51,672 bases of DNA, taken from NCBI GenBank assembly GCA_021817985.1, contig JAKAFK010000018.1, positions 1 to 51,672 of the forward strand, read 5' to 3'. The stretch is from Pseudomonadota bacterium. Its GTDB lineage: Bacteria > Pseudomonadota > Gammaproteobacteria > Burkholderiales > JAKAFK01. How positions within the stretch are numbered: position 1 is the first letter of the stretch; every line of letters starts with the position of its first letter. The notes under the pieces were generated by a model. The model ran no database searches, was not told where the DNA came from, and saw only the letters and a program-made list of their open reading frames with translations. Made by a program: the position numbers and the translations under genes. Below are positions 4,783-51,672 of this stretch, in pieces.

Positions 4783-5160
4783 ATGTCGAAGCCACAGTCG
4801 CGCGCCCGCCGCATGGCGGAACAGATCCAGCGGGAACTGGCGGAGATTGTCCGCCAGGAACTCAAGGATCCGCGCGTCGGCATGCTCACCTTCACGGATG
4901 TGGAGGTCGCCCAGGACTATGCCCATGCGAAGGTGTTCTATACCCAGCTGGGCGGTGCGGATCAGCTCGCCTCGACCGCCGAGGCCCTGGAGCGGGCTGC
5001 CGGCTTCCTGCGCTCGCAGCTCGCCCATCGGTTGCGCACGCGTACCGTGCCGCAGCTGCACTTCGTCTATGATGCCTCGGTCGAACAGGGGATGCGGCTT
5101 TCCCGACTGATCGACGAGGCGCTCGCCGAAGACCAGGCGCAAGCCAAGGACAAATCCTGA
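4783..5160 (+). CDS. rbfA: 30S ribosome-binding factor RbfA
   Basis: RbfA is a KH-type factor that binds the 16S rRNA 5' region during late 30S maturation and cold adaptation. The 125-residue product carries RMAEQIQRELAEIVRQELKD near the N-terminus and the VTDVEV-like strand FTDVEVAQDYAHAKVF. It ends in the helix with DEALAED. I chose ATG 4783 (MSKPQSRARR) because it matches the family N-terminus. An in-frame TTG at 4762 would overlap the infB stop and adds only seven unconserved residues. It sits in the nusA operon. Confidence 0.95.
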   Translation: MSKPQSRARRMAEQIQRELAEIVRQELKDPRVGMLTFTDVEVAQDYAHAKVFYTQLGGADQLASTAEALERAAGFLRSQLAHRLRTRTVPQLHFVYDASVEQGMRLSRLIDEALAEDQAQAKDKS

Positions 5161-5173
5161 GGGTGCGGGACGC

Positions 5174-6100
5174 GTGATGGGCCCTTCCATCCGGCGGGAG
5201 AAACGCTGCGTCAGCGGCGTCGTGCTGGTCGACAAGCCGCTCGGGCTGACGTCCAACGCGACCTTGCAGCAGGTCAAGCGCCTTTATCAGGCCGCCAAGG
5301 CCGGTCACACCGGCACGCTCGATCCGATGGCCACGGGGCTGCTGCCGATTTGCCTGGGCGAGGCGACCAAATTCGCCCAGTTTTCCCTCGATGCCGACAA
5401 GGCGTACCTCGCGCGCATCCGGCTCGGGGAGACCACGACGACCGGGGATGCCGAAGGCGAGACGGTGGCCCGTCTCCCGGTCGAGGCGACCCCCTCCCGG
5501 ATCGAGGCGGTGCTCCATCAGTTCGAGGGCGCCATCGAACAAATCCCCCCCATGTATTCTGCGCTCAAGCACAAGGGCCAGGCGTTGTACACTTACGCGC
5601 GCGCCGGGCTGGACATCGACCGGGCGCCGCGTCCGGTGTTCATCCACGCGCTGCGCCTCGAGGCGGCGTCGAATGACGAACTGGAGGTGAGCGTGCGTTG
5701 CAGCAAGGGAACCTACATCCGCGTTCTCGCCGAGGATATCGGCCGCGCGCTAGGATGCGGTGCCCACCTCGCCGCCTTGCGCCGCACGGCCTCAGGCGGC
5801 TGGCAGGTCGAGGCGGCGCTCACCCCGGACTCCCTCGAGGCCATGAGCCTGTCGGCCCGCGACGAACACCTATTGCCCCCGGACTGCCTGGTCGCCCATT
5901 TGCCCCGCGTCGATCTCGTCGCGCCCGAGGCGCGCCGCATCGGTCACGGCCAGTCGGCCCAGGAGACGACGGCAGCGCCGGGCGTGCCGGTGCGACTCTA
6001 TGCACCGGGCGGCCGCTTTCTGGGAATCGGGGAAGGCGGGCCGGATGGGCGTGTCGTCCCCGTGCGCCTTACCGTGGAAAACGGGGGACCGCGGTGGTGA
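5174..6100 (+). CDS. truB: tRNA pseudouridine(55) synthase TruB
   Basis: TruB isomerises U55 in the T-arm of elongator tRNAs and also acts as a tRNA chaperone. The 308-residue protein has the catalytic motif HTGTLDPMATGLLP with the nucleophile Asp50. It also has the KAYLA strand, the family motif RCSKGTYIRVLAEDIG (about residues 175-190), and a C-terminal PUA-like domain. The start may be GTG 5174 or the next codon, ATG 5177. It is the last forward gene of the rimP block; the next gene is on the other strand, so the usual truB-rpsO junction is broken here. Confidence 0.97.
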   Translation: MMGPSIRREKRCVSGVVLVDKPLGLTSNATLQQVKRLYQAAKAGHTGTLDPMATGLLPICLGEATKFAQFSLDADKAYLARIRLGETTTTGDAEGETVARLPVEATPSRIEAVLHQFEGAIEQIPPMYSALKHKGQALYTYARAGLDIDRAPRPVFIHALRLEAASNDELEVSVRCSKGTYIRVLAEDIGRALGCGAHLAALRRTASGGWQVEAALTPDSLEAMSLSARDEHLLPPDCLVAHLPRVDLVAPEARRIGHGQSAQETTAAPGVPVRLYAPGGRFLGIGEGGPDGRVVPVRLTVENGGPRW

Positions 6101-6155
6101 CCTGGGGATCGCCTCCATCCCGGGAGGTCGCCCGTGCCGGACAAGCGCGGCCCGC

Positions 6156-6186
6156 GGGTCGGGCTTCCCTGCTTGTCGCCCGACCC
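6156..6186. other. Perfect 9-bp hairpin between convergent truB and dsrE-like gene
   Basis: GGGTCGGGC (6156-6164) pairs perfectly with GCCCGACCC (6178-6186) over a 13-base loop. It lies in the 138-base gap between two convergent genes, where a shared terminator would be expected. Neither side has a T run, so intrinsic termination is uncertain. Confidence 0.4.
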
Positions 6187-6238
6187 CGGTTGTCCCCGTC
6201 CGCGCCAAGCAGGAGCCGTTGACGAAGACGGAGGGCGG

Positions 6239-6766
6239 CTACGGCTGGATCTGGACGTAGCCTTGCTGAACCAGCTGGATGATTCGCCCGACGGCCCCGG
6301 CGTTCACCAGCACGCCCGGAAGCAAGTCAGCGTTGCCCCAGCCATGCCCCTTCATGGACACGGCACATTCCTCGATCTGAACGCCCTGGCGCTGCAGGTT
6401 CGCGATGAGGCCCTTATAGGGATTGCCGGTCGTGACACCGCGATAAGCGTCGTAGGCCTTGTCGTTCAGCGTCATGAATGCGGCCTTGCCATGGAATACG
6501 CCGATGATCTTTCCGGGGGTCCTCGTCTTTTTCATGCGCAGCGCGAGCAGGTGCATGTACTTCATCCCCACCGGCATGTCGCCGAAGAACGCCAGGTGAT
6601 CCATATTGAACACCACGTCGGCTTCCTTGAGCTTGACAGGGATCTCGACATGAATGGCGTGCGCCTGGGTGCCGGAAGGGGCCGCCATGGCGGCATGTCC
6701 GCCCGCCAAGGTGCCAAGAAGTGCCGCGGATACGATGAGGGACTTGAGAAGCGTCTGCTGGGCCAT
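6239..6766 (-). CDS. Exported DsrE-family sulfur-relay-like protein
   Basis: The 175-residue product starts with a clear signal peptide (MAQQTLLKSLIVSAALLG, Ala-rich cleavage region near residues 25-30). A DsrE/DsrF-like domain follows: an HIEIPVKL-type first strand, VVFNMDHLAFFGDMPVG, a helix-rich middle, one cysteine in EECAVSMKG, and the characteristic end LLPGVLVNAGAVGRIIQLVQ. COG1416-type DsrE proteins of this form are common and often periplasmic, and their reaction is not established. I chose ATG 6766 rather than the longer frame because it opens the signal peptide. It faces truB and diverges from rpsO, splitting an otherwise conserved cluster. Confidence 0.85.
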   Translation of the reverse strand: MAQQTLLKSLIVSAALLGTLAGGHAAMAAPSGTQAHAIHVEIPVKLKEADVVFNMDHLAFFGDMPVGMKYMHLLALRMKKTRTPGKIIGVFHGKAAFMTLNDKAYDAYRGVTTGNPYKGLIANLQRQGVQIEECAVSMKGHGWGNADLLPGVLVNAGAVGRIIQLVQQGYVQIQP

Positions 6767-6880
6767 GCTGAGGGTGTCCTTTTTGTTCAGTTGTCGTCGA
6801 TTGGACGAAAAAAATGGAGAAGCCCGCCGCGAGTGCGAACGGATCGCCTCGAGATGTCGAGTCTTCTCCAGCGGGCGATG

Positions 6881-6993
6881 GGCGCCGTTCGGTTGAGCGG
6901 CGCCAGCGAGCATATACGCTTGGATGCCCGTTTTATTCCCGTGCCCCGACGTTGAAGTCGATGGGGACCGCGTCTCGGGCCCGGCGTCGGGGC
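6881..6993. repeat. Two inverted repeats in the divergent dsrE-like/rpsO gap
   Basis: The gap 6767-7217 has no gene I can support. It holds two perfect inverted repeats: GGCGCCG (6881-6887) with CGGCGCC (6898-6904), and GCCCCGACG (6943-6951) with CGTCGGGGC (6985-6993). Function is unknown; they may be RNA hairpins or protein-binding sites. Confidence 0.4.
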
Positions 6994-7028
6994 GTGTTTC
7001 GGACCGTCGGGCAGGTCGAAGGAATCGC

Positions 7029-7058
7029 TTGAGGCTTTGTCGGATGACGCGCTATAAT
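7029..7058 (+). promoter_or_regulatory. Sigma-70-type promoter of rpsO-pnp
   Basis: TTGAGG (7029-7034) and TATAAT (7053-7058) are separated by 18 bases. The transcript would have a leader of about 150 bases before rpsO, long enough for the S15 autoregulatory structure known in other Proteobacteria (inference). Confidence 0.75.
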
Positions 7059-7217
7059 GGCAAGTTCGCGAGATCGTGGACGTGCCTCACCCCGGATGCA
7101 GCGCTTCGGGTCGCGGGCCCCATCTGGCAGGAAATTCTGTTCGGTTGATACGGATTTTCCTGTGCCTTCGCGCGAAGGCGCGAATTTGACTCTCTACCCT
7201 CTATGACTGGAGCAAAC

Positions 7218-7487
7218 ATGTCCGTTTCAACCGATCAGAAGGCACAGATTGTGCAGGATTACCAACGCGTCCAGGGCGATACGGGATCGCCGGAAGTGCA
7301 GGTGGCCCTCCTGACCGCCCGCATCAACGACCTGACCGATCATTTCAAGATCCACGTCAAAGATTTCCATTCGCGTCGCGGATTGCTGAAGCTGGTGAGT
7401 CGCCGGCGAAAACTCCTCGATTACCTCAAGGATCGGAACGTCGAGGCCTACCGGACGCTGATTGACCGCCTGGGGCTGCGCAAGTAA
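7218..7487 (+). CDS. rpsO: 30S ribosomal protein S15
   Basis: S15 binds the 16S rRNA three-way junction and helps form the central domain and an intersubunit bridge. From ATG 7218 the product is exactly 89 residues, the standard length. It has the family motifs [35 protein letters not shown] and [14 protein letters not shown] lies 5 bases upstream of this ATG. An earlier in-frame ATG at 7203 adds five unconserved residues and is unlikely. It precedes pnp by 116 bases, the normal order. Confidence 0.98.
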
Positions 7488-7603
7488 AGCGACCCCGAAA
7501 AAGGAGTAAAGAGCGCTCGCCGCGGACGGTCCCCATGCGGGGCGGGCAAATGGCGTTGCGGCGCAAGTGGCCGCGATAGACGACTCGGTAAAGGATATCG
7601 CCG

Positions 7604-9715
7604 TTGAGACAGATCAAGAAAAGCTTCACGTACGGTCGCCATGCGGTGACTTTGGAAACCGGTGAAATCGCTCGCCAGGCAACTGGGGCGGTACTGGTCA
7701 ACATGGAGGACACCGTCGTCCTGGTGACGGTGGTGGGGCTCAAGGACGCCAAGCCCGGGCAGGATTTCTTCCCGCTGACGGTCGACTACCAGGAACGCAC
7801 CTATGCCGCCGGAAAGATTCCCGGCGGATTCTTCAAGCGGGAAGGCAAGCCGTCGGAGAAGGAAACGCTCACCTCGCGCCTCATCGACCGGCCCCTGCGC
7901 CCGTTGTTTCCCGAGGGCTTCTACAACGAGGTCCAGATCGTTGCCACGGTGATGTCGTCGAATCCCGAAGTGGATTCCGATATTCCCGCGATGCTCGGCG
8001 CATCCGCGGCTATGGCGATTTCCGGCATTCCCTTCAACGGCCCGATCGGGGCCGCGCGCGTGGGCTACGTGGATGGACAGTATGTCCTCAACCCCTATGC
8101 GGCGGAGCTGCAGTTCTCTCAATTGAATTTGGTCGTGGCGGGCACCGAATCGGGCGTGCTCATGGTCGAGTCCGAAGCGACCGAGCTGCCGGAGGACGTG
8201 ATGCTGGGCGCCGTGGTTTACGGGCATACGCAGATGCAGGCGGCGATCCAGGCGATCAACGAGCTGGCCGATGAAGTCGGGGCCGAGCCGTGGGACTGGA
8301 CGGCACCCGAGAAGGATACGGCGCTCATCGCGCAGGTGTCCGAGATGGCCGAAAGCGAGCTGGTGGCCGCATACAAGATCAAGCAAAAGCAGGCTCGGTC
8401 GAGCCAGGTCGATGCGATTCGCAGCCGAGTGGTGGCCGCCCTGATCACCGAGGAGTCCGACCCGGCACGCGTTAACTTGGTGAAAAGCGTTTTCAAGGAT
8501 CTTGAATCGCACATCGTGCGCGGCCAGATCCTGGCCGGCGAGGCGCGCATCGATGGGCGGGACACCCGCACCGTGCGCCCCATCACCATCCGGCCCGGCG
8601 TCCTGCCGCGCACCCATGGCTCCGTCCTGTTCACGCGCGGAGAAACGCAGGCGCTGGTGGTCACGACCCTCGGAACCGCTCGTGACGAGCAGATCATCGA
8701 CGCCTTGCAAGGCGAGTATCGCGACCGCTTCCTGCTGCACTACAACTTCCCCCCCTATTCGACGGGAGAAACCGGACGGATCGGGACGCCCAAGCGCCGT
8801 GAGATCGGGCATGGACGCCTGGCCAAGCGCGCACTGATGGCCGTCTTGCCCAGCGCGGAAGAATTTGCCTATACCATGCGTGTGGTGTCGGAGATCACGG
8901 AATCGAATGGCTCGAGTTCGATGGCGTCGGTGTGCGGCGGCTGCCTGTCCATGATGGACGCCGGCGTGCCGCTGAAGGCGCACGTGGCGGGCATCGCGAT
9001 GGGCCTGATTCTCGAGGGCAACCGTTTTGCGGTCTTGACGGATATCCTGGGCGACGAGGATCACCTTGGCGACATGGACTTCAAGGTGGCGGGCACCGAA
9101 GCGGGCGTCACGGCGCTGCAGATGGATATCAAGATCGATGGGATCACGAAGGAAATCATGCAAGCCGCCTTGGCGCAGGCGCGAGAAGGCCGCATGCATA
9201 TTCTGGGCCTGATGAAGCAGGCGGTGCCGAGCCCGCGCTCGGGCCTTTCCGCTTATGCCCCTCGCATGCTGACGATGAAGATCAATCCGGAGAAAATCCG
9301 CGACGTCATCGGCAAGGGCGGGGCGGTGATTCGTGCCCTCACGGAAGAGACGGGCACGTCCATCGACATTGCCGAAGACGGGACCGTGACCATTGCCTGC
9401 ACGGCGTCCGAAGCCTGCGAACTCGCGAAGCAGCGGATCGAGGCACTGACCGCGGAAGTCGAGGTTGGCAAGGTCTACGAGGGAACCGTCCTCAAACTCC
9501 TCGACTTTGGTGCGATCGTGAGTGTGCTGCCGGGCCGCGATGGCCTTTTGCACATCTCCCAGATTGCCCATGAGCGCGTGGCGTCGGTGGCCGACCATCT
9601 CAAGGAAGGCCAGGCGGTCAAGGTCAAGGTGCTCGAGGCCGACGAAAAAGGTCGCCTGCGCCTGAGCATGAAGGCCCTGCTCGACGCGCCCGAGCGGCCG
9701 GAAAAGGCCGAATAG
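7604..9715 (+). CDS. pnp: Polyribonucleotide nucleotidyltransferase (PNPase)
   Basis: PNPase degrades RNA 3' to 5' by phosphorolysis and is a degradosome component. The 703-residue protein has two RNase PH domains (about 10-220 and 310-540). The second includes the [13 protein letters not shown]-like and [23 protein letters not shown] region ([14 protein letters not shown] shown). An alpha-helical linker lies between them. A KH domain ([20 protein letters not shown], about 557-620) and an S1 domain (about 620-693) follow. The start is TTG 7604, placed 8 bases after AAAGGA, and it fits the family N-terminus. A very strong terminator follows. Confidence 0.98.
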
Positions 9716-42592: not shown

Positions 42593-43041
42593 GGCCGGAT
42601 GTCTCTTAAGAAAAATGGAGCGGCGACTTGTCATCCAAAGCATACCTTTCGCAGTGCGTGTTGTACCTGTCGGCATCGAGCGCCCATCCGGGCAAGACGG
42701 GGCGAGCCGTGCGCGCGTGACCGACAATGGGGAAGGTTCAAGGGGCCCGACAGCGGCCCGTCCTCAGCGCCGCATGGAGCCGCCGAGAGCCCGCCCGGTG
42801 CATGGGCGGGATGCGCTTTTTACGCTAGGCTATCCGTCGGGGTCAGTCAAATTTCAAATAATTCATGTTTCTGTTCGCAGGCGGCATTTCTGCGTGCGAG
42901 GGGTCCGCGTGGACGCTCCTCCCCCTCGGCCAAGGAGGATCTTTGGCTTTTTGCCATAATGGGGAATCCTCGTGGACGGCGTTCCCATTCGGCGCCGTTT
43001 TCCGATGCGCCATCGGCGCCGAGCATGTTTTGCCATAGGCG
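42593..43041. other. Divergent intergenic region
   Basis: About 450 bases lie between the L,D-transpeptidase and DUF2127 starts. An AT-rich patch at 42845-42875 and CATAAT at 42955-42960 are possible promoter elements. No gene or RNA is supported. Confidence 0.4.
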
Positions 43042-43602
43042 ATGAGCAGACCAAGCATGCGTCCATTCTTCCGGTCAAAAGACAGCCTGCCTGCCGGTCC
43101 GGCCGGGGGCGCCGACGCGCATTGGATCGAACATCGGATCTTTCTCGTCGGGGTCTGGATCAAAGGGCTGGCCGGCCTCGTCGAGGCGATCGGCGGAGCG
43201 CTCGCGCTGGCGGTCAACCCGACGCTTTTGCGTTCCTTCGTGCTGTTCCTGACGGCCCCCGAACTGGCGGAGGATCCGTCCGATCTGGTGGCGAATTTCC
43301 TGCGGCGCTCCATCCGGCATTATTCCGGGAACGTGCAGCTTTTCACCGGCGTGTATCTTGTCGCGCACGGTGTGATCAAGATCGGGCTGGTCGTCGGGTT
43401 GCTGCGCGAGAAGCTGTGGGCTTATCCCCTGTCCCTCTGGTTCGTGGCGGCCTTCGTGCTCTACCAAAGCTACCGTTTCGCCCATACGCACTCGGCCTGG
43501 CTCCTGTTCCTCACGGCTTTCGATCTGGGCGTCATGGCCCTGATCTGGCGCGAATATCGCTGGCAGGAACGGCGCCTGCACGCCGATTCACCACCACCCT
43601 AA
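43042..43602 (+). CDS. DUF2127-family membrane protein
   Basis: The 186-residue protein has four predicted helices. The DUF2127 pattern appears as IFLVGVWIKGLAGLVEAIGG, then NVQLFTGVYLVAHGVIKIGLVVGLL (shown in part: YLVAHGVIKIGLVVG). Next are WAYPLSLWFVAAFVLYQSYRF and LLFLTAFDLGVMALIWREYR (shown to 20). The H-G-x-x-K motif is the family hallmark; function is unknown. The ATG at 43042 is chosen among close alternatives. It stands upstream of a c-di-GMP gene with a 260-base gap. Confidence 0.88.
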   Translation: MSRPSMRPFFRSKDSLPAGPAGGADAHWIEHRIFLVGVWIKGLAGLVEAIGGALALAVNPTLLRSFVLFLTAPELAEDPSDLVANFLRRSIRHYSGNVQLFTGVYLVAHGVIKIGLVVGLLREKLWAYPLSLWFVAAFVLYQSYRFAHTHSAWLLFLTAFDLGVMALIWREYRWQERRLHADSPPP

Positions 43603-43862
43603 CGCGCGGCGGGCGTCGGCGCTCTCGGGGGGGATTCTTGGGCCTTGCGCCGGTGCCCGAGGCTCGGATCGGGCGAATCAAGATGGCGCGATGCGCCGTT
43701 AACTGGTATTTTACTTGCCTGGGTATTTTGCCCGTCTTCAACCCGGCGTTTGCCACGGGCGAGCCATGGGCCCCCGGAACGTCGAAGGGCACGCGCGCCC
43801 GACGCGGCGCGACGCGCATGAAGGCAGGGCACCCATTCGTTTCGCTGGGGTGTGTGCGGCCT

Positions 43863-45701
43863 ATGGATACCACGCAAGAACGGCTCTCGATTTATCAGGC
43901 GCTTCTGGTCGCTACGGCGAGCCTTTCCGCAGGAGGAACCCCTTACGATGTTCTGAAGGCGGCTTGTGATGGCCTGGTTGCCTCCTCCCGCTCGATTTGT
44001 CTCGCCTGGATGTATCTCGGGGACCCCGACCGGGAGGATGTTCGCCCCCAGTATGTCGTTGGGCGCGCGGCCGAATATGCGCACGGACTGGTCATCGATC
44101 ATTCGGAGGAAGCGAAGCGGGGACCGGGGCGGCGTTCCTTGGCCAGTGGCGAGCCGGTGCTCGTCCATGTGGCATCCGACCCGACGTTCGGACGGTGGCG
44201 TGCCGACGCGTTACGATGGGGCCTTCAGGACGGCTTGACGCTGCCGGTGGGGCAGCCGGGCACCTTGCCTCGCGGGATGATCGTGATTTTCGCAGATGCG
44301 CTCGACTATTTTCAGCGCGTCGGCGTGGAGCCCTTCATCGCCTTCGGGCAAATCGCGGGCGTGGCCCTTGATCAGGCCAAGCTCAAAGTCTCTCTTCAGC
44401 AGGCGGCGACCATCGATCCGACCTCCGGCTTGTTCAATCGCCGGGCGCTGCTCGATTGCATTGCTCGCACGCATGCCCAGGCCGAGCGCAGCGGCAACCC
44501 TTACAGCTTTCTCCTGCTCGACCTGGACCGCTTCAAGCTCCTGAACGACAATTACGGACATGCCTTGGGCGACGAGATGCTGGGGCACGTCGGGCAGGTC
44601 CTGGGCCACAGCCTGCGCGCGGGCGACGTGGTCGGCCGCTGGGGGGGCGAAGAGTTTCTCGCCATCTTGCCCGATACCAGCCAGCCGGATGCGGTGAGCA
44701 TTGCCGAGCGCGTGCGCGCCCAGGTCGAAGGCTTTGCCATCGAGTTCAACCGCGAGCAGGTGAGTACGACGACGAGCCTTGGGGTGGCGAGTTTCCCGCG
44801 CGATGGGGATACCCCGGAGTTTCTCCTCAAGGCGGCGGACGCCGCGCTCTATGAGGCCAAGAAGACGGGCCGCAACCGGGTCGTCGCCGTGGGGGCCAAG
44901 CATGAGGTGTACTCGCTGGCCGCGAAAATCGGCTCGGCCCTCGCAGCGCACCGGTTGGTGGCGGCTTACCAGCCGATTGTCGACCTAAAGACCGGCCAAG
45001 TGATGGCTGACGAGGCTCTGGCCAGGCTGATCGACGAAGACGGCCATCCCATCGAGGCCATCCATTTCATCGCCGCGGCGGCCGAGTTGCAGATGACGCA
45101 TCTGATCGATTCCGAGGTCATCACCCGGACCATCCGCCGCTGCAGCGAGCGCATGGCCCAAGGACGCGAGAGCATCGCGCACTTCGTCAACGTGTCGGGC
45201 GATTTGTTGCTGCATCAGGAACTCGTGGAGGCGCTGTTCGCCGAAGCGCAATCGGCGTGCACCGCCTGCGGCCTGGAGATGTCGGGCGTCAAGCCGCTCG
45301 TGCTGGAAATTACCGAGCGGCAGCTGTTGGGCGACATGGCGGCGGTGAAGGCCAAGCTGGCGCCGTTCCTGGATTTTGGCCTGCGCCTTGCCGTCGATGA
45401 TTTCGGCAGTGGCTATTCCTCTTTTCAGTATCTTGCCGATCTTCCGGTGTCCTTCCTGAAGATCGAGGGCGATCTCATTTCGCGGGTGCGCGATCCGAGG
45501 GTGCGCAAAATCGTCGGCCGCATCCAGGACATTGCAAGGGACCTGGATCTCATCACTATTGCCGAATTTGTCGAAGATGCCGAAACGGCCGAGATTTTGC
45601 GGGCGCTGGGCGTCGATTGGGCACAGGGCTATTTCTTCGGCCGCCCGCAGCTCGTCATTCCCTCCCTCGCTTTCCCTTCCCCTGCGTCCTCCGGGGCCTG
45701 A
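43863..45701 (+). CDS. GAF-like/GGDEF/EAL c-di-GMP turnover protein
   Basis: From ATG 43863 the product has 612 residues. It has an N-terminal GAF-like sensor (about 5-170), a GGDEF domain with intact GGEEF (261-265) and an RxxD inhibitory site (Arg252, Asp255). The EAL domain has Glu384-Ala-Leu, NVSG, ITE, DDFGSGYSS, FLKIEGD, IAEFVED and QGYFFGRP, so the metal- and substrate-binding residues are present. Both synthesis and hydrolysis of c-di-GMP are possible. In-frame ATGs at 43818 and 43683 exist; the latter would add a hydrophobic segment. The start is uncertain. Confidence 0.9.
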   Translation: MDTTQERLSIYQALLVATASLSAGGTPYDVLKAACDGLVASSRSICLAWMYLGDPDREDVRPQYVVGRAAEYAHGLVIDHSEEAKRGPGRRSLASGEPVLVHVASDPTFGRWRADALRWGLQDGLTLPVGQPGTLPRGMIVIFADALDYFQRVGVEPFIAFGQIAGVALDQAKLKVSLQQAATIDPTSGLFNRRALLDCIARTHAQAERSGNPYSFLLLDLDRFKLLNDNYGHALGDEMLGHVGQVLGHSLRAGDVVGRWGGEEFLAILPDTSQPDAVSIAERVRAQVEGFAIEFNREQVSTTTSLGVASFPRDGDTPEFLLKAADAALYEAKKTGRNRVVAVGAKHEVYSLAAKIGSALAAHRLVAAYQPIVDLKTGQVMADEALARLIDEDGHPIEAIHFIAAAAELQMTHLIDSEVITRTIRRCSERMAQGRESIAHFVNVSGDLLLHQELVEALFAEAQSACTACGLEMSGVKPLVLEITERQLLGDMAAVKAKLAPFLDFGLRLAVDDFGSGYSSFQYLADLPVSFLKIEGDLISRVRDPRVRKIVGRIQDIARDLDLITIAEFVEDAETAEILRALGVDWAQGYFFGRPQLVIPSLAFPSPASSGA

Positions 45702-45830: not shown

Positions 45831-47522
45831 ATGAGCAAGCTGATGACGCACGACGTCGAGCAGGCGGCCAGACAGTCGCTGGCTACGCTCGATCGGGGCG
45901 TAAAGCTCATTTTCTTCACGCAGCCCGTTGCCTGCGGGGCGTGCGCCGAGCAGCGCGAGCTCCTCGAGTCCCTGACCCGCTTAAGCCCAAGGCTTTCCCT
46001 CGAAGTTTTTCCGCTCGATTCCCCCGCTGCCCTCGAATACGGCGTGACTAAGGCCCCTGCGACCGTCGTGCGAGGGCGCGTCGATCATGGGATACGCTTC
46101 TACGGATTGACGGGGGGCTATGAGTTCGAATCGCTGCTGGAGTCCATCCGGCTGATTTCCCAGGAGGCGGCCGGGCTGGATGGCGATGTGGTCCAGCTTG
46201 CCGCGCTGCTCAAGGTACCCGTTCACATCGAGGTGTTGGTGACCCTGGGCTGCCCCTATTGCGGGAAAATGGTGCGCCTGGCGAATCAGCTGGCGCTGGC
46301 CAACGCGCAGGTGAGGGCGGACATGGTGGACGCCGCCGAATTTCCCGAGCTCGTCACCCGCTATGACGTGCATGGCGTGCCCTTGACGGTCGTCAATGGC
46401 CGGCGGGCGTTCGAGGGGGCGCTTGCCGCCGATCAAGCGGTTCTGGAAATCCTGAAGGCCGCCGATCGTGAGGCCTACGAGGCGATCGAGGCGCGCTTGC
46501 GCGAGGCGCAGGGGTTGCGCCAAGCCAGCCGGGCAAAGGAGGGCGAAGTCTATGACGTGGCGGTCATTGGCGCCGGCCCGGCGGGGCTCGCGGCCGCCTT
46601 GTACGCCCGGCGCAAGGGACGCAGCACGGTTCTGATCGGCCGGCAGGCGGGTGGTCAGATCAACGATACGGCGTTGGTGGAAAACTATCCGGGACTCGTC
46701 CGAATCGAGGGCGCGGAGCTGGGGCGGGCCATGCGCGAGCATCTCGAAGCCTATCCCGTGGCGGAGCGCTGTCACGCGCAGGTGACGCGCATCGAGCGCG
46801 AGGAGCGGCTGTTTCGCATCGCGCTCGAAGGCAAGGAGCATTACCTCTCGCGTACGGTGATCTATTGCGCAGGCAAGCGCTATCGGCGTTTGGGCCTGCC
46901 CGGCGAAGAGCGCTTCATCGGGCGCGGCATCGCCTGGTGCGCGACCTGCGATGCGCCCCTGTACCGCGACAAGCGGGTCGCGGTGGTGGGCGGCGGCAAC
47001 TCCGCCTTCACGGCCATCCGCGATCTGCTCCATTATGCGTCGGACATCCACCTGATCCAAAGTTCCGATCGTTTCCAGGCGGACCCGATCCTGGTCGACG
47101 AAGTTCGTCGAGCCGAGCAGGGCGGCAGGGTCCATATCCATCTCAACAGCCAAATTCGCGAATACCTGGGCGACCAGCGGCTGGAAGGGGTGCGCCTGGC
47201 ATCGGCGGAGGGGGGCGCGACGGTCGACTTGGCCGTCGAGGGCGTGTTCCTGGAGATTGGGCTCGAACCCAACAGCGCCGCTGTCGGTAGGCTGCTGGAA
47301 CTCAATCCGCACGGGGAGATCGTAGTCGATCGCGAGCAGCGGACAGCCGTGCCCGGCCTGTTCGCAGCGGGGGATGTCACTGACGAGCCGGACAAGCAGA
47401 TTGTGATTGCGGCCGGTGCGGGTGCCAAGGCGGCGCTGGCGGCGGATCGCTATTTGGCGGCGGGCCCGTCGGACGCAGTTGGGCGCACCGGACAGGAACG
47501 CGCTTTGGGGGCAGTCCGGTGA
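45831..47522 (+). CDS. Fusion of protein disulfide oxidoreductase and thioredoxin reductase (AhpF-like)
   Basis: The 563-residue protein has two tandem thioredoxin folds, each with its own active site: CGAC (Cys35, Cys38) and CPYC (Cys141, Cys144). A thioredoxin-reductase module follows with the FAD motif IGAGPAGLAA (about 245), the redox pair CATC (Cys370, Cys373), a NADPH-binding VVGGGNSAF and the C-terminal FAD motif LFAAGDVTD. AhpF has the same order, but its first fold normally lacks the cysteines. No ahpC is nearby. It probably passes NADPH electrons to a dedicated disulfide or peroxide partner. Confidence 0.9.
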   Translation: MSKLMTHDVEQAARQSLATLDRGVKLIFFTQPVACGACAEQRELLESLTRLSPRLSLEVFPLDSPAALEYGVTKAPATVVRGRVDHGIRFYGLTGGYEFESLLESIRLISQEAAGLDGDVVQLAALLKVPVHIEVLVTLGCPYCGKMVRLANQLALANAQVRADMVDAAEFPELVTRYDVHGVPLTVVNGRRAFEGALAADQAVLEILKAADREAYEAIEARLREAQGLRQASRAKEGEVYDVAVIGAGPAGLAAALYARRKGRSTVLIGRQAGGQINDTALVENYPGLVRIEGAELGRAMREHLEAYPVAERCHAQVTRIEREERLFRIALEGKEHYLSRTVIYCAGKRYRRLGLPGEERFIGRGIAWCATCDAPLYRDKRVAVVGGGNSAFTAIRDLLHYASDIHLIQSSDRFQADPILVDEVRRAEQGGRVHIHLNSQIREYLGDQRLEGVRLASAEGGATVDLAVEGVFLEIGLEPNSAAVGRLLELNPHGEIVVDREQRTAVPGLFAAGDVTDEPDKQIVIAAGAGAKAALAADRYLAAGPSDAVGRTGQERALGAVR

Positions 47523-47767: not shown

Positions 47768-48157
47768 ATGTCGGAAAGAATGTGTATTGTGCTGGTGTCT
47801 GGCCAGCGGGAGCAGCTGCAGATGGCCGGCATGATGGCCTCCGTAGGGGCGGTCAGTGGGATGGACGTGACGGTGTTCGTCTCGATGAATGCGTTGCGCT
47901 ACTTCGTCAAGGGCTCGACGGAAGCCGCGCCTGCGGAAGGCGAAATGGGGCGGCTCATGGAGCAGAAGAAGGCACCTGCCTTCCGGACGCTGTTCGAGCA
48001 GGCGGCCACGCTGGGTGATGCGAAGATCCATCCGTGCACCATGGCGATGGATATCATGGGCATCGAGAAGGAAGGGCTGGAGCCCTATATGGGCGAGTCG
48101 CTCGGGCTCACCAAGTTTCTCTCGGATGCCCAAGGCGCGCAGGTTTGGTCGTTTTGA
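47768..48157 (+). CDS. DsrE-family sulfur carrier protein (DsrE3-like)
   Basis: The 129-residue cytoplasmic protein starts at ATG 47768 after GAAGGAGA. It has CIVLVSGQREQLQMAGMMAS, VTVFVSMNALRYFVKG, and the DsrE active-site region AKIHPCTMAMDIMGIEKEGL (in full 20) with conserved Cys90. Cys6 is a second cysteine. DsrE3-type proteins next to TusA are known in acidophilic archaea and bacteria to accept thiosulfonate or persulfide groups from TusA; the same exchange is inferred here. It is the first gene of a four-gene operon. Confidence 0.88.
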   Translation: MSERMCIVLVSGQREQLQMAGMMASVGAVSGMDVTVFVSMNALRYFVKGSTEAAPAEGEMGRLMEQKKAPAFRTLFEQAATLGDAKIHPCTMAMDIMGIEKEGLEPYMGESLGLTKFLSDAQGAQVWSF

Positions 48158-48158
48158 G

Positions 48159-48186
48159 CCACTGTTTCGCAAGTGGTTTTGATTTT
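48159..48186 (+). other. Small hairpin with U-rich tail between dsrE and tusA
   Basis: CCACT (48159-48163) and AGTGG (48172-48176) form a short stem followed by TTTTGATTTTG. It could give partial termination after dsrE. Confidence 0.4.
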
Positions 48187-48203
48187 GTTGGAGGATACGC
48201 CTC

Positions 48204-48431
48204 ATGGCGAAAAAAGTGATTGATGCGAGGGGAAGTTTCTGCCCCGGTCCCCTCATGGAGCTGATTGCCGGTGTGAAGGCGGCCGACGTCGGGGATGAGC
48301 TGGAGGTGCTGTCGACCGACAAGGGTTCGGCAACCGACATCCCGGAGTGGGTCAAGAAGGTCGGCCACGAGGTGGTTGGGACGAAGGAAGAGAACGGCGT
48401 TTGGCATGTGTTCATACGTAAGGCCAAGTGA
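48204..48431 (+). CDS. tusA: TusA-family sulfur carrier protein
   Basis: The 75-residue protein has the TusA/SirA signature: VIDARGSFCPGPLMEL with the sulfur-carrying Cys13 in the CPxP motif. The beta-alpha-beta core continues as VGDELEVLSTDKGSATDIPEW (shown in part) and ends VWHVFIRKAK. It binds sulfane sulfur or thiosulfonate on Cys13 and passes it on. GGAGG stands 10 bases before the ATG. Its place directly after dsrE supports a role in sulfur oxidation rather than tRNA thiolation. Confidence 0.93.
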   Translation: MAKKVIDARGSFCPGPLMELIAGVKAADVGDELEVLSTDKGSATDIPEWVKKVGHEVVGTKEENGVWHVFIRKAK

Positions 48432-48448
48432 GCAAGGCGGTAGGGCGA

Positions 48449-48467
48449 GGCGCCCCTGAAGGGCGCC
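48449..48467 (+). other. Hairpin between tusA and the flavoprotein gene
   Basis: GGCGCCC (48449-48455) pairs with GGGCGCC (48461-48467) around CTGAA. There is no T run. It may stabilise the upstream dsrE-tusA mRNA or tune read-through. Confidence 0.45.
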
Positions 48468-48498
48468 CACTTTAAACAAATAAAGAGGAGACTACGGT

Positions 48499-49635
48499 AT
48501 GAAGATATTGATCGTCGGCGGTGGCATGGGCGGCACCATCCTGGCAAACAACCTCGCGCGCCGCTTGCACGGCGAGCTGAAGTCCGGCAAGGCACGGATC
48601 GTCATGCTGTCGGCCTCGGATCGGCACATGTACCAGCCCGGCCTGCTTTATGTGGCGGTCGGACGCATGACGCCGGATGAGCTCTATCGCGACCAGGCGA
48701 GCCTGCTCGAGCCCGGCATCGAGTTCCATGTCGATCCGGTGACCGAGTTCCACTTCGCAAAAAACCACGTCACGACGCAAAGCGGCAAGACCTGCGACTA
48801 TGACGTCCTGGTCATTGCGACGGGGTCTCGCGCCATGATGACGAGCATCCCGGGCCTCGCGGAAAATGCGGAAACGTTCTACACCGAAGAGACTGCGGTC
48901 AAGATGTTCAAGGCGCTGCGCAGCTTCGAGGGGGGGCGCGTGGTCGTCACGGTGGGCGTTCCCCACAAGTGCCCGATGGCCCCGCTGGAAATCACCTTCA
49001 TGCTCCACGACTACTTCAAGGACCGCGGCATGGGCGACAAGGTGCAGATCCACTACACCTATCCCATCGGACGCGTGCATAGCCTTGAGAACGTGGCCAA
49101 ATGGGCGGCGCCGGAATTCGACAGGCTCGGCATCACGTATGAGACCCTCTTCAACATGAAGGAGGTCGATGGTGCGAACAAGGTGCTCAAGAGCGAAGAA
49201 GGCAGCGAGGCGAAATACGATCTCCTGATTGCCATCCCGGCGCACAAGGGCATGGAAGTGGTGGAGAAGGCGGGCTTCCAGAACGGCTGGGTGCCGACCA
49301 ATCGCACCAACCTGCATATGGACGGCGAGCATGGCAAGAACGTCCTGGTGCTGGGCGATACGACGAATCTGCCGATTTCCAAGGCCGGCTCGACCGCCCA
49401 CTTCGAGGCGGAAGTCGTGGCCGAGAATCTTGCCGCGGTCGTCAAGATGGGCGTTCCCGTGCGCGATTACGACGGGAAGGTGTTCTGCTTCATCCAAGCC
49501 GGCAAGGAACGCGCCACGTACGCGAGCTTCAACTACACCACCCCACCCAGCCCGCAGCCGCCCACCCGTGCGGTGCACTGGTTCAAGACGGCCTACAATA
49601 AGCTTTACTGGGCGTCTGCGCGCGGTCTGCTGTAA
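48499..49635 (+). CDS. Sulfide:quinone oxidoreductase-like FAD flavoprotein
   Basis: The 378-residue protein has the FAD motif ILIVGGGMGGT (3-13), YQPGLLYVAVG, VLVIATGSR (104-111) and VLVLGDTTNLPISKAGS. Three cysteines stand out: Cys99, Cys158 in PHKCPMAPLE and Cys330 in VFCFIQ. The last two align by context with the redox pair of SQR. The C-terminal HWFKTAYNKLYW is amphipathic, as expected for membrane association. It probably transfers electrons from a sulfur compound to quinone; sulfide itself or a carrier-bound sulfur are both possible. It lies 14 bases before the DUF1641 gene. Confidence 0.87.
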   Translation: MKILIVGGGMGGTILANNLARRLHGELKSGKARIVMLSASDRHMYQPGLLYVAVGRMTPDELYRDQASLLEPGIEFHVDPVTEFHFAKNHVTTQSGKTCDYDVLVIATGSRAMMTSIPGLAENAETFYTEETAVKMFKALRSFEGGRVVVTVGVPHKCPMAPLEITFMLHDYFKDRGMGDKVQIHYTYPIGRVHSLENVAKWAAPEFDRLGITYETLFNMKEVDGANKVLKSEEGSEAKYDLLIAIPAHKGMEVVEKAGFQNGWVPTNRTNLHMDGEHGKNVLVLGDTTNLPISKAGSTAHFEAEVVAENLAAVVKMGVPVRDYDGKVFCFIQAGKERATYASFNYTTPPSPQPPTRAVHWFKTAYNKLYWASARGLL

Positions 49636-49649
49636 CAGAGGAGGACCAC

Positions 49650-50618
49650 ATGAACGTCCAACTCGATAGTAAGGCGGCGGAGAGCGGCGAACTCGATCGG
49701 CTGGTCCAGGCGGCCAAGGACGCGTTGACCGACGACATCGTCGCGCGCCTTGCCGCAACGGCCTCGGATGGCGCCGATCTGCTCGATCGCGTCAACCGCT
49801 CGGGGGTCGCGAAGGCCTTGCCGCATCTGGCGGAGATGGCCAACAACGGCGACCTCGAGCGGCTCGCGCAGCTCGCGCGGCTGGTCGGTTCCGCTCAGGA
49901 CGCGCTGACCGATGACATGGTCAGTCGCCTCGCCGAAATGGCCGGGGGCAGCATGGACATGCTGGACCAAATCACCCGGGCCCAGCTGGGCAAGGCGATC
50001 CCGGTCATCGCCAAGCTGATCCAGAACGGCGACCTCGAGCGGGTCGCGGATCTGGCCCGCTTGGTGGGCTCCGCCCAGGACGCGCTGACCGATGACATGG
50101 TCAGCCGTCTCGCCGACACGGCGGGCGGGGCGATCTCCCTGGTCGACCAGATCAACCGCGCGCAGCTGGATAAGGCCATTCCGGTGATTGCGCGAATGGT
50201 GCACACCGGGGATCTCGATCGTCTGGCCGATCTGGCCCGGCTGGTGGGCTCCGCTCAGGACGCGCTGACCGATGATATGGTGAGCCGTTTGGCTGAGGCG
50301 ATAGGGGGCGGCCTCGCGATGCTGGATCGCCTGCAGCGCGGCAGTGGTGACCGGCTGGTCAACATGCTGGAGCGGCTGGACAGCGCGGGAACCATCGAGA
50401 AGCTTGCGGAAGCCCTTCCTTCACTGGTCAACCGCCTCGATATGGTGGAAGGACTGTTGCACTGTCTCGAGAAATCGGCGACCGAGGCGAAGGAGGGCGC
50501 CCACTCGCCCGGCGGGCTCATGGGGCTATTCGCCCTGATGCGCCGGAAGGATACCCAGGAAACACTGGGCTTCCTGCTTGGGTTGGCGCGCAACATGCAG
50601 GCGCAATGCAGCCGCTGA
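49650..50618 (+). CDS. DUF1641 protein with four tandem helical repeats
   Basis: The 322-residue protein is mostly helical. It consists of four repeats (one of 54 and three of 60 residues, residues about 13-246) with the core ARLVGSAQDALTDDMVSRLA. A C-terminal DUF1641-like region follows, with LVNRLDMVEGLLHCLE and GLMGLFALMRRKDTQETLG. DUF1641 genes are repeatedly found next to sulfide:quinone reductase-like genes in archaea and bacteria; function is unknown. A soluble or peripheral partner of the flavoprotein is likely. ATG 49650 follows AGAGGAGG, 14 bases after the flavoprotein stop. Confidence 0.88.
   Translation: MNVQLDSKAAESGELDRLVQAAKDALTDDIVARLAATASDGADLLDRVNRSGVAKALPHLAEMANNGDLERLAQLARLVGSAQDALTDDMVSRLAEMAGGSMDMLDQITRAQLGKAIPVIAKLIQNGDLERVADLARLVGSAQDALTDDMVSRLADTAGGAISLVDQINRAQLDKAIPVIARMVHTGDLDRLADLARLVGSAQDALTDDMVSRLAEAIGGGLAMLDRLQRGSGDRLVNMLERLDSAGTIEKLAEALPSLVNRLDMVEGLLHCLEKSATEAKEGAHSPGGLMGLFALMRRKDTQETLGFLLGLARNMQAQCSR
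49686..50387 (+). repeat. Tandem 180-bp repeats inside the DUF1641 gene
   Basis: Units lie at 49686-49847 (162 bases, shortened), 49848-50027, 50028-50207 and 50208-50387. The most conserved part is GACGCGCTGACCGATGACAT, nearly identical in units 2-4 and diverged in unit 1. Each unit is an exact multiple of three, so expansion keeps the frame. Confidence 0.9.
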
Positions 50619-50687: not shown

Positions 50688-50720
50688 GCCGCCCTTCCAT
50701 CCGGGGGGCGGCTTTTTTTT
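50688..50720 (+). terminator. Terminator of the dsrE-tusA-sqr-DUF1641 operon
   Basis: GCCGCCC (50688-50694) pairs with GGGCGGC (50706-50712), followed by eight T residues. Confidence 0.92.
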
Positions 50721-50787: not shown

Positions 50788-51672
50788 TCATTGGGCAGCT
50801 GCATCATTCCCGGTAGAGGGCTTTTTGCGCAACAGGAGCGTCAGTACAGGGGGCGCGATGATAGTGCTCAGAATGACCATGATCACGATGACGGAAAATA
50901 GGGCCTCGTTCACCACGCCAAGCTGCTTGCCGGCCATGGCGAAGATCAACCCCACCTCGCCGCGCGGCACCATACCCCAACCCACCACCCAAGCATTGAC
51001 GCCGCGTCCCGCGACGAATCCGGCCAACAGTTTTCCGGCGACGGCCGCAGCCGCCACACCGAGTGCGACCGCAACAACGACGCAGCTGGCGAGCACGGAC
51101 AGATCGACCTGCATACCCGTGAGCACGAAAAACACTGGTACGAAGAAGTAGCCTATTGGCTCCAGCATGTGCTCGTGTTGGCGGCCGGCATGGTGAGCGA
51201 GCGTTTCTCGCACGCGTCCAACAAGAGAGTGAGTGCCGCTGGGTATACCGCTTGGCAATAGCGCCTCCACTTCGCGCACGATCTTGGGTGTCTCGAAGGT
51301 CTTGAGGAACACCGGTTCAAACAAGAGCCCCGCCGCGAAGGCGCCGATGATCGGCGCAAGGCCCGCCAAATGGGCGAGCCAGGCCATGAACAGACCCGTA
51401 GCCAGCACCTGGGCAAACAGCATGCTACGGCTCCTGTCCAGTCGCGCCAGCCAGCGGCTCGAGTAGGGCGCAAGCGCACGGCCGATGACAATCGAGCCCA
51501 CAAGGAACAGGGCCGCGTTGACAATGATGCTGCCCACTTCGCCCAGAGTGACGGAGCCCGCCCGCACTAGTCCGCTCACCACCGCTAAAATGACCAAACC
51601 CAGGACGTGGTCGATCACCGCCGCACCAAGGACGATGCGCGCCTCAGCAGTGCCGATCTGGTTGAGGTCACG
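50788..51672 (-). CDS. CPA2-type cation:proton antiporter, C-terminal part (partial)
   Basis: The reverse frame runs off the right edge of the window; 294 residues are visible. Several transmembrane helices are seen, including AAVIDHVLGLVILAVV, NAALFLVGSIVIGRAL, PIIGAFAAGLLFEP, PIGYFFVPVFFVLTGMQVDL and WGMVPRGEVGLIFAMAGKQ. This is the core of a KefB/Na+/H+ exchanger-like antiporter. The family's usual Asp-Asp pair in AAVIDD is Asp-His here. No RCK/TrkA domain follows before the stop. It is convergent with the sulfur operon. Confidence 0.9.
   Translation of the reverse strand, partial: RDLNQIGTAEARIVLGAAVIDHVLGLVILAVVSGLVRAGSVTLGEVGSIIVNAALFLVGSIVIGRALAPYSSRWLARLDRSRSMLFAQVLATGLFMAWLAHLAGLAPIIGAFAAGLLFEPVFLKTFETPKIVREVEALLPSGIPSGTHSLVGRVRETLAHHAGRQHEHMLEPIGYFFVPVFFVLTGMQVDLSVLASCVVVAVALGVAAAAVAGKLLAGFVAGRGVNAWVVGWGMVPRGEVGLIFAMAGKQLGVVNEALFSVIVIMVILSTIIAPPVLTLLLRKKPSTGNDAAAQ

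Follow-up and report, generated by a model that had tools for sequence, protein, structure and literature searches.

Known relatives and the layout of the locus

Linkage of sulfide:quinone oxidoreductase (SQR) genes to tusA and dsrE is already in print for Metallosphaera and Methylacidiphilum. In Metallosphaera cuprina, Mcup_1722-1724 encode TusA, a putative SQR and DsrE4, with the SQR gene directly adjoined by tusA and dsrE, according to PMC4175335, in which the term DUF1641 does not occur. In Methylacidiphilum, the type III SQR MFUM_v2_0219 shares an operon with TusA and DsrE2; the operon is reported to be upregulated 1.7-fold with H2S, elemental sulfur is the proposed product, and the term DUF1641 is absent from that paper as well. 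The dsrE3A-dsrE2B-tusA-hdr cluster of sulfur oxidizers also places dsrE beside tusA, but its genomic partners are an Hdr-like complex and dihydrolipoamide dehydrogenase rather than an SQR.

Relatives of DUF1641 proteins are found with other enzymes. The NDH-2 pair YjlC-YjlD of Bacillus subtilis combines a DUF1641-related subunit with a flavoprotein that belongs to the superfamily of the one described here (profile E-values of 9e-8 for YjlC and 4.8e-11 for YjlD). However, it is an NADH dehydrogenase by name, YjlC has 140-176 residues as deposited compared to 322 in the DUF1641 protein, and we know of no sulfur carriers that accompany it. In the ForCE formate dehydrogenase and the Huc hydrogenase, the DUF1641-related subunit (ForE and HucM, respectively) links a soluble dehydrogenase to menaquinone, but the catalytic subunits are a molybdenum/tungsten formate dehydrogenase and a [NiFe]-hydrogenase.

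In the window analyzed here (the whole stretch of DNA, 51,672 nucleotides), sequence reading and Pfam identified four co-directional ORFs at 47768-50618 in the order dsrE, tusA, flavoprotein gene and DUF1641 gene (Table 1). The dsrE start was placed at an ATG with AAGGAG upstream; the enclosing ORF begins earlier, at a GTG (47681). As in the Methylacidiphilum operon, TusA and DsrE genes accompany the SQR-like gene, whereas in M. cuprina dsrE lies on the opposite side of sqr, judging by locus numbers. A single strong terminator-like hairpin with a T-run, at 50688-50712, follows the DUF1641 gene (fold z -4.06), and the hairpins in the dsrE-tusA gap (z -1.70) and the tusA-flavoprotein gap (z -0.91) are weaker when compared to shuffles, which agrees with the earlier note's placement of one terminator at the end of the unit.

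Table 1. Positions of the genes and sequence features of the unit within the window
Feature	Position	Strand	Description
dsrE-like gene	47768-48157	+	129 aa; Pfam DrsE_2 1.5e-13
tusA-like gene	48204-48431	+	75 aa; CPGP motif; Pfam TusA 1.4e-22
Type III SQR-like flavoprotein gene	48499-49635	+	378 aa; Pfam Pyr_redox_2 7.7e-18
Conserved flavoprotein C-terminus YN..YW..ARGLL	49594-49632	+	48 residues past Cys330
DUF1641 helical-repeat protein gene	49650-50618	+	322 aa; proposed quinone-access/membrane-coupling subunit
Three helical repeats in DUF1641 gene	49854-50393	+	60 residues (180 nt) each
Pfam DUF1641 core	50508-50597	+	near C-terminus of DUF1641 protein
Intrinsic terminator	50688-50720	+	10-pair hairpin (8 G-C) + T8; fold z -4.06

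The complete unit, with its order kept, was found in 76 of 80 public loci (the best 80 of 426) and, among the sampled genomes, in 31 of the 35 clade loci, so the four-gene arrangement is not due to chance. Where the contig has room, the TusA gene was present directly upstream of the flavoprotein gene in 79/79 public and 35/35 sampled-genome loci, the DUF1641 gene in 79/79 and 34/34, and the DsrE gene in 77/78 and 32/35. Loci with a flavoprotein score below 400 bits (L141-L144, L146, L155-L157) were excluded from these counts. The public and sampled-genome sets are not independent of each other, since some of their loci share one sequence (L115 and L089 are such a pair). The earlier note had described four linked genes for two sulfur carriers, an SQR-like flavoprotein and a DUF1641 protein; Pfam matches and gene order bear this out, and the consistent separation of the genes that it had asked about did not occur. 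Its statement that a DUF1641-SQR neighborhood is established for related acidophiles could not be matched to a source, as no paper joining DUF1641 with SQR was found in the open-licence literature, though other papers may do so, and nothing in the analysis marks the source organism as an acidophile. The flanks of the unit are not conserved, with the biggest neighbor family in 10/80 loci (many contigs are short). The upstream PDO/thioredoxin-reductase-like gene (45831-47522) was considered as a member and left outside the unit because flanking gene families occur in at most 10/80 related loci; it adjoins the unit in G001 as well.

Outside these loci, tusA, flavoprotein and DUF1641 genes are adjacent on three plasmids, all haloarchaeal, out of eight plasmid regions read (41 plasmid records matched at E 1e-30, 20 of them listed, and 175 at 1e-10, 60 of them listed). 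In Natrialba magadii the order is flavoprotein-DUF1641-cydA-cydB, with quinol oxidase genes adjoining, and this flavoprotein keeps both cysteines without an adjacent TusA. Four other flavoprotein-DUF1641 pairs without TusA (L141, L155, L162 and L163) have lost Cys330. These four rows form one clade in the tree, so the correlation between TusA absence and Cys330 loss amounts to a single event. The tree has 73 rows; it takes in 15 of the 80 public loci and omits duplicates as well as three fragments. Because it is rooted at the midpoint and long branches meet, we do not interpret its deep forks.

The flavoprotein and the two carrier proteins

By sequence and structure model, the flavoprotein is type III SQR-like and has both redox cysteines. 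Cys158 (48970-48972) and Cys330 (49486-49488) align with cysteines of human SQOR, the best PDB match, and are retained in all TusA-linked rows covering those positions; Cys99 is present and not conserved. Two canonical catalytic cysteines are described for type III SQR in PMC13047784. The top NCBIfam match was NF049943 SQR_III_seleno at 299 bits, which is under the 525-bit cut-off of that selenoprotein subtype, and no general type III SQR model was among the NCBIfam matches. The AF2 model (pLDDT 89.6; all structure models are of single chains) has an SQR-type fold of two dinucleotide-binding domains over the whole chain, and VIA matched it to human SQOR (Z 41.3, rmsd 2.8, 367 aligned), followed by the A. 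ferrooxidans and Aquifex SQRs.

The described type III SQRs (SqrC; the Caldivirga maquilingensis enzyme; Methylacidiphilum MFUM_v2_0219) share the SQR fold and catalytic cysteine pair by description. Going by the same descriptions, the flavoprotein is set apart by a short constant C-terminus (short helices, RGLL) and by its DUF1641 partner. Its model ends after short helices at 360-368 and 370-374, and its alignment with the longer A. ferrooxidans and Aquifex SQR chains stops at their residues 411 and 400, respectively. Most SQRs have two C-terminal amphipathic membrane-binding helices, and type VI SQR and A. ambivalens SqrE have one. The tail past Cys330 is 48 residues long in 127/127 clade rows reaching that cysteine (duplicates included; about 120 without them). 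The YN..YW..ARGLL terminus occurs in 124 of 126 DUF1641-partnered rows, the remaining two ending in RGII, and in none of the 10 rows where no DUF1641 partner was seen. Like the loss of Cys330, this motif follows clade.

DsrE has two cysteines, of which Cys90 (codon 48035-48037) is of the active-site type and conserved in 112/112 aligned DsrE rows, and Cys6 is not conserved. TusA scores 79.7 bits with Pfam against a cut-off of 28.6, and the Cys13 of its CPGP motif (codon 48240-48242) is cysteine in 125/125 aligned stretches from 123 ORFs. These two cysteines and the flavoprotein pair are where the earlier note had placed them. Its DsrE3 label was not supported: DsrE3A is defined by Cys-X7-Cys in PMC4175335, this motif is absent from DsrE, and the nearest solved relative is 2QS7 (E 1e-20), which the same paper identifies as the DsrE2B protein SSO1126. 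Despite this DsrE2B-like kinship, the gene adjoins an SQR-like gene rather than Dsr or Hdr genes, and linkage to SQR fits DsrE4. PMC4175335 also reports that in M. cuprina tetrathionate reacted with TusA and DsrE3A, that neither of these two responded to sulfide, GSSH or polysulfide, and that DsrE2B was unreactive toward every sulfur compound tested; thiosulfonate forms of DsrE3A and TusA are known from this species.

The DUF1641 protein and quinone-coupling subunits

The DUF1641 protein matches Pfam DUF1641 at 24.7 bits (cut-off 21), and at E 0.01 the Pfam model is matched by 20 of 25 family members and by 18 of 37 long members in another set. When a 25-row family profile was compared with solved proteins, it matched YjlC (9e-8), ForE1 (2.4e-6) and HucM (1.4e-4), with the next match at 0.031. 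A 5-row profile matched YjlC at 8.4e-6 and ForE1 at 0.44, and HucM was absent up to E 1; kinship to ForE1 and HucM is thus visible only with the broad profile. The partners in L141 and L163 escaped the initial model and are detected by the broader one, but both are among its 25 rows. In the nine loci taken to lack DUF1641, the broader model gave no match at E-values up to 1; one of these, the second gene in L165, stops 155 nt short of the end of its record.

Repeats with a DALTDDMV motif occupy residues 69-128, 129-188 and 189-248, and a repeat search found three copies at spacings of 180 and 180. Since the copies are 70% identical at the DNA level, a tandem duplication here is probably not recent. 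Among 123 DUF1641 homologues 60 is the most frequent motif spacing, and the number of repeats varies. Matches to TrbH and to AbiEi_4 (in 17/37 family members) were taken as helical-repeat look-alikes. The model of this protein is poor (pLDDT 72, pTM 0.31), with a Foldseek E of 2.9 and VIA Z scores (4.8 to HucM, 3.6 to YjlC) in a range that unrelated helices can reach.

YjlC was deposited in the PDB as an 'NDH-2 membrane coupling protein'. ForE is reported to be needed for menaquinone coupling in ForCE, a menaquinone-linked formate dehydrogenase: without ForE1, bound menaquinone drops and menadione activity is absent. Dye activity of ForC1 without ForE1 is also down about 50-fold, which indicates that ForE is needed for integrity too. 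HucM is described as the stalk of Huc and a proposed menaquinone conduit. The kinship to YjlC, ForE1 and HucM suggests that the DUF1641 protein probably gives the SQR-like flavoprotein access to membrane quinone, and the quinone-reducing role that the earlier note gave the module is likely.

A proposed carrier-coupled SQR and its alternatives

We propose, with a probability of roughly 0.55, that the four genes together specify a carrier-coupled SQR with DUF1641-mediated quinone access, whose sulfur goes to TusA/DsrE. H2S would be oxidized at the FAD of the cytoplasmic type III SQR-like flavoprotein by way of the Cys158/Cys330 pair. The electrons would pass to membrane quinone, reached through the DUF1641 protein as a putative peripheral helical-repeat subunit akin to YjlC, ForE and HucM, couplers of soluble or peripheral dehydrogenases to quinone; it may replace part of the C-terminal membrane anchor missing from the short flavoprotein. 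Sulfane sulfur on the SQR cysteine would then move to TusA Cys13 and/or DsrE Cys90 and from the carriers into a cytoplasmic oxidation route, for example, reverse Dsr. The conserved redox cysteines and the H2S response of the Methylacidiphilum operon fit an enzyme that oxidizes sulfide and delivers the sulfur to the carriers.

It is also conceivable, though we consider it unlikely, that the enzyme oxidizes free sulfide as an ordinary SQR, using DUF1641 for quinone, and releases polysulfide, GSSH or sulfur, with TusA and DsrE co-expressed for downstream use and not docking to the SQR. Flavoprotein-DUF1641 pairs without TusA exist, and elemental sulfur is the proposed product for Methylacidiphilum, which has SQR-TusA-DsrE2, and M. 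cuprina TusA and DsrE3A are inert to sulfide, GSSH and polysulfide; the last two observations count against hand-over from SQR to carriers. However, TusA is immediately upstream in every locus with room and on the three haloarchaeal plasmids, and the four rows that lack Cys330 also lack TusA. A scaffold for assembly or oligomerization with no quinone role, which would be compatible with such sulfur release, is an improbable account of DUF1641. The variable repeat number would suit it, as would the integrity effect in ForC1 and the reported loss of the Huc oligomer upon hucM deletion with Huc still active in lysate, but the menaquinone and menadione effects of losing ForE1 and the deposited title of YjlC argue against it.

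The earlier note had favored oxidation of sulfur bound to TusA or DsrE, with electrons going to quinone. The gene unit itself and the thiosulfonates of DsrE3A and TusA reported for M. cuprina are in keeping with this, but both sulfide-oxidizing cysteines are retained, the top fold match is a true SQR, and the comparable Methylacidiphilum operon responds to H2S, which leaves this reading with little probability. From the earlier interpretation the module and the likely quinone role were supported, whereas the DsrE3 label, the established neighborhood and carrier-bound sulfur oxidation were not. The direction of the reaction is not fixed by the present data, and quinol could in principle drive reduction of carrier-bound sulfane sulfur with release of sulfide. 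We regard this as highly improbable given that redox potentials favor sulfide oxidation by ubiquinone, that the Natrialba pair adjoins a terminal quinol oxidase, which fits feeding of the quinone pool, and that H2S is reported to upregulate the Methylacidiphilum operon.

More tentatively, the carrier-coupled SQR proposed here might belong to a widespread, cross-domain class that works partly off the membrane on a DUF1641 stalk, its length set by the number of 60-residue repeats, and passes sulfur straight to TusA/DsrE. If this is true, such SQRs could do without free polysulfide and without tight anchoring in the membrane, and DUF1641 would be a general plug-in quinone adaptor common to SQR, NDH-2, formate dehydrogenase and hydrogenase. 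Dedicated carriers would catch the sulfur, an adaptor of this shared type would collect the electrons, and the unit would offer a concrete protein set for testing SQR to TusA hand-over.

As for the onward route, no dsrA match was found in 8 of the 26 module genomes, defined as the 30 class genomes matching at 1e-60 minus four distant ones (G224, G236, G254 and G289). The gene was present in the other 18, compared to 99 of the 343 remaining genomes sampled from that class (Fisher p 8e-5, with kinship ignored), and it is present in the source genome.

The four-gene unit and its linkage

The unit encodes DsrE (129 aa), TusA (75 aa), a type III sulfide:quinone oxidoreductase (SQR)-like flavoprotein (378 aa) and a DUF1641 protein (322 aa), all co-directional, and re-reading of the open reading frames and domains bore out the coordinates and residues given for it in the earlier note. 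The flavoprotein stop codon lies 14 nt before the DUF1641 start, compared with a median of 12 nt over 123 pairs. The genome to which the window belongs (3.97 Mb, 184 contigs) has three copies of the module. The second is complete on contig C90, with a flavoprotein 62% identical to that of the window, and the third, a flavoprotein-DUF1641 stretch on C99, is interrupted by a contig end. The DUF1641 proteins of these paralogs (C178, C90 and C99; loci L022 and L023) have 322, 140 and 238 aa.

Coordinates of the features
Sequence	Position	Strand	Feature
Window	42972-45701		GGDEF-EAL protein
Window	45831-47522		Protein-disulfide-oxidoreductase-like N-terminus fused to thioredoxin-reductase/AhpF-like C-terminus, just upstream of the unit
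Window	47768-50618		dsrE-tusA-flavoprotein-DUF1641
Window	50688		Strong terminator downstream of the DUF1641 gene
Window	50788-51672	minus	Cation/proton antiporter (Na_H_Exchanger, CPA2-like), continues beyond the window end
pKLC102 (L162)	4962-6594		Flavoprotein-DUF1641 pair without the second Cys, on a conjugative plasmid
Natrialba magadii pNMAG02 (L164)	4935-9265		flavoprotein-DUF1641-cydA-cydB; cydA and cydB annotated as cytochrome ubiquinol oxidase subunits I and II, directly after DUF1641

A scan that took one genome from each species turned up 426 stretches with relatives of the flavoprotein, and the best 80 of the 426 were retained. All four genes were present in the same order and on the same strand in 76 of these 80 loci. 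Three of the exceptions (L033, L035 and L090) are at contig ends; in the fourth, L083, no DsrE was found. None of the flanking gene families occurred in more than 10 of the best 80 loci, and the fusion gene just upstream in the window was not among the conserved neighbours. Because the four-gene order is kept, the flanks are not conserved and the flavoprotein-DUF1641 gap is short, the four genes look like a stand-alone unit. In evenly drawn samples, both of which contain the window's own genome, a flavoprotein match at 1e-60 was found in 30 of 369 class genomes and 11 of 398 phylum genomes. Of the 35 clade loci from these samples, 31 had all four genes; TusA was adjacent in 35/35, DUF1641 in 34/34 with room on the contig, and DsrE in 32/35. 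As for the GGDEF-EAL gene, its homologue in genome G001 begins about 280 residues later, and the start of the open reading frame in the window is probably too far upstream.

The flavoprotein and its DUF1641 partner

The closest family model for the flavoprotein was the type III SQR selenoprotein subtype, with a score below its cut-off. By profile, the closest solved relatives were human SQOR (1.5e-42), the archaeal SQR 3h8i and Aquifex SQR, followed by flavocytochrome c and the NDH-2 YjlD. The Tetrahymena ATP-synthase subunit ATPTT1 (PDB 6ynv) is also a relative by profile (1.9e-13). An AF2 model (pLDDT 89.6) aligned with human SQOR over 367 residues (Z 41.3). Cys158 and Cys330 align with cysteines of SQOR and are retained in every TusA-linked row covering them. 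SQR activity is predicted with high confidence. In four loci with a flavoprotein-DUF1641 pair and no TusA (L141, L155, L162 and L163), the first Cys is retained and the second is gone; all four belong to a single clade, and the loss accordingly counts as one event. These pairs are possible quinone reductases. The Natrialba flavoprotein retains both Cys residues without an adjacent TusA. Four SQR-like proteins (L142, L143, L144 and L157) are longer at the C-terminus by about 180-200 residues, and this added part resembles a CBS-domain pair by eye.

The tail after Cys330 has 48 residues in 127/127 clade rows, some of them duplicates, and ends in a conserved YN..YW..ARGLL; the chains of Acidithiobacillus ferrooxidans and Aquifex SQR extend past this end point. 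This motif was present in 124 of 126 rows with a DUF1641 partner (the other two end in RGII) and missing from 10 rows, from nine loci, in which no DUF1641 was seen. Two further rows are at contig ends, with the motif present in L090 and L145 truncated before it. PMC9666304 states that the type III SQR of Caldivirga became soluble and inactive when one or two of its C-terminal helices were deleted.

The DUF1641 protein is built of 60-residue helical repeats, three of them in register in the window. Repeat number varies across the family. A motif spacing of 60 clearly predominates, and the proteins measure 113 to 342 aa (one cut 38-aa stretch excluded). The AF2 model was poor and structural matches were weak. 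A 25-row profile matched YjlC (9e-8 for 9snk; 1.8e-7 for 9pxk, 'NDH-2 membrane coupling protein'), ForE1 of formate dehydrogenase (2.4e-6) and HucM of Huc hydrogenase (1.4e-4), with noise beginning at 0.031. A 5-row profile matched YjlC, reached ForE1 at only 0.44 and gave no match to HucM up to E 1. The relevant papers report that ForE copurifies with ForC and that without ForE there was little bound menaquinone, no menadione activity and about 50-fold lower dye activity (PMC8808070), that HucM is a membrane-associated stalk and proposed menaquinone conductor (PMC10017518), and that a Parageobacillus hydrogenase operon includes a DUF1641 gene (PMC12976888). The DUF1641 protein is thus likely to be a quinone/membrane coupler, a prediction held nearly as firmly as that of SQR activity. 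The open-licence literature searched contained no paper with DUF1641 together with 'sulfide quinone', and none of its nine papers on DUF1641 was on SQR by title. Wider partners for DUF1641 may, reportedly, already have been proposed by Broc et al.

Plasmid and archaeal relatives

Among plasmid records, 175 matched the flavoprotein at 1e-10 and eight regions were examined. The tusA, flavoprotein and DUF1641 genes are directly adjacent on plasmids of Halopiger, Halobaculum and Haloarcula hispanica (41-42% identity), and tusA and the flavoprotein gene overlap in two of the three. The flavoprotein-DUF1641 pair also occurs on a Comamonas plasmid, and a Chlorohelix plasmid has tusA-flavoprotein with no DUF1641 adjoining. 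On a Mycobacterium marseillense plasmid, where two distant flavoproteins are encoded, neither partner was seen; the record stops 155 nt past the second flavoprotein. We infer that the core is flavoprotein-DUF1641 with TusA and that DsrE is a proteobacterial addition, though the tree is uncertain at its deep forks.

Sulfur carriers and the proposed route

In the aligned homologues, Cys13 of TusA (in CPGP) and Cys90 of DsrE are invariant. The earlier note had called the DsrE protein DsrE3; that label is not supported, as the Cys-X7-Cys of DsrE3A is lacking, and the nearest type is DsrE2B. SQR, TusA and DsrE have been published as neighbours in M. cuprina (PMC4175335), and an SQR-TusA-DsrE operon of M. 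fumariolicum, up 1.7-fold with H2S, has also been published. The M. cuprina paper describes DsrE3A and TusA as taking thiosulfate from tetrathionate and as unreactive with sulfide, GSSH and polysulfide, and DsrE2B as reacting with none of the compounds tested (PMC4175335). This makes it less likely that the carriers readily take up free sulfur species.

The earlier note had suggested that the flavoprotein may oxidise carrier-bound sulfur rather than free sulfide. The reading favoured here, with a probability of about 0.55 for the whole scheme, is that the flavoprotein would oxidise H2S, that electrons would pass to quinone accessed through DUF1641, and that sulfane sulfur would go to TusA/DsrE. 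That the two carriers are direct acceptors of the sulfane sulfur is somewhat favoured, less firmly than the predicted roles of the flavoprotein and DUF1641.

Among the class genomes, 18 of the 26 bearing the module gave a dsrA match, versus 99 of 343 without the module (Fisher p 8e-5, uncorrected for relatedness). The remaining eight module genomes of the 26 gave no dsrA match, which suggests that another route may serve there. The module occurs in 20 families, of which 15 include at least one dsrA-positive member, and dsrA is present in the window's own genome.
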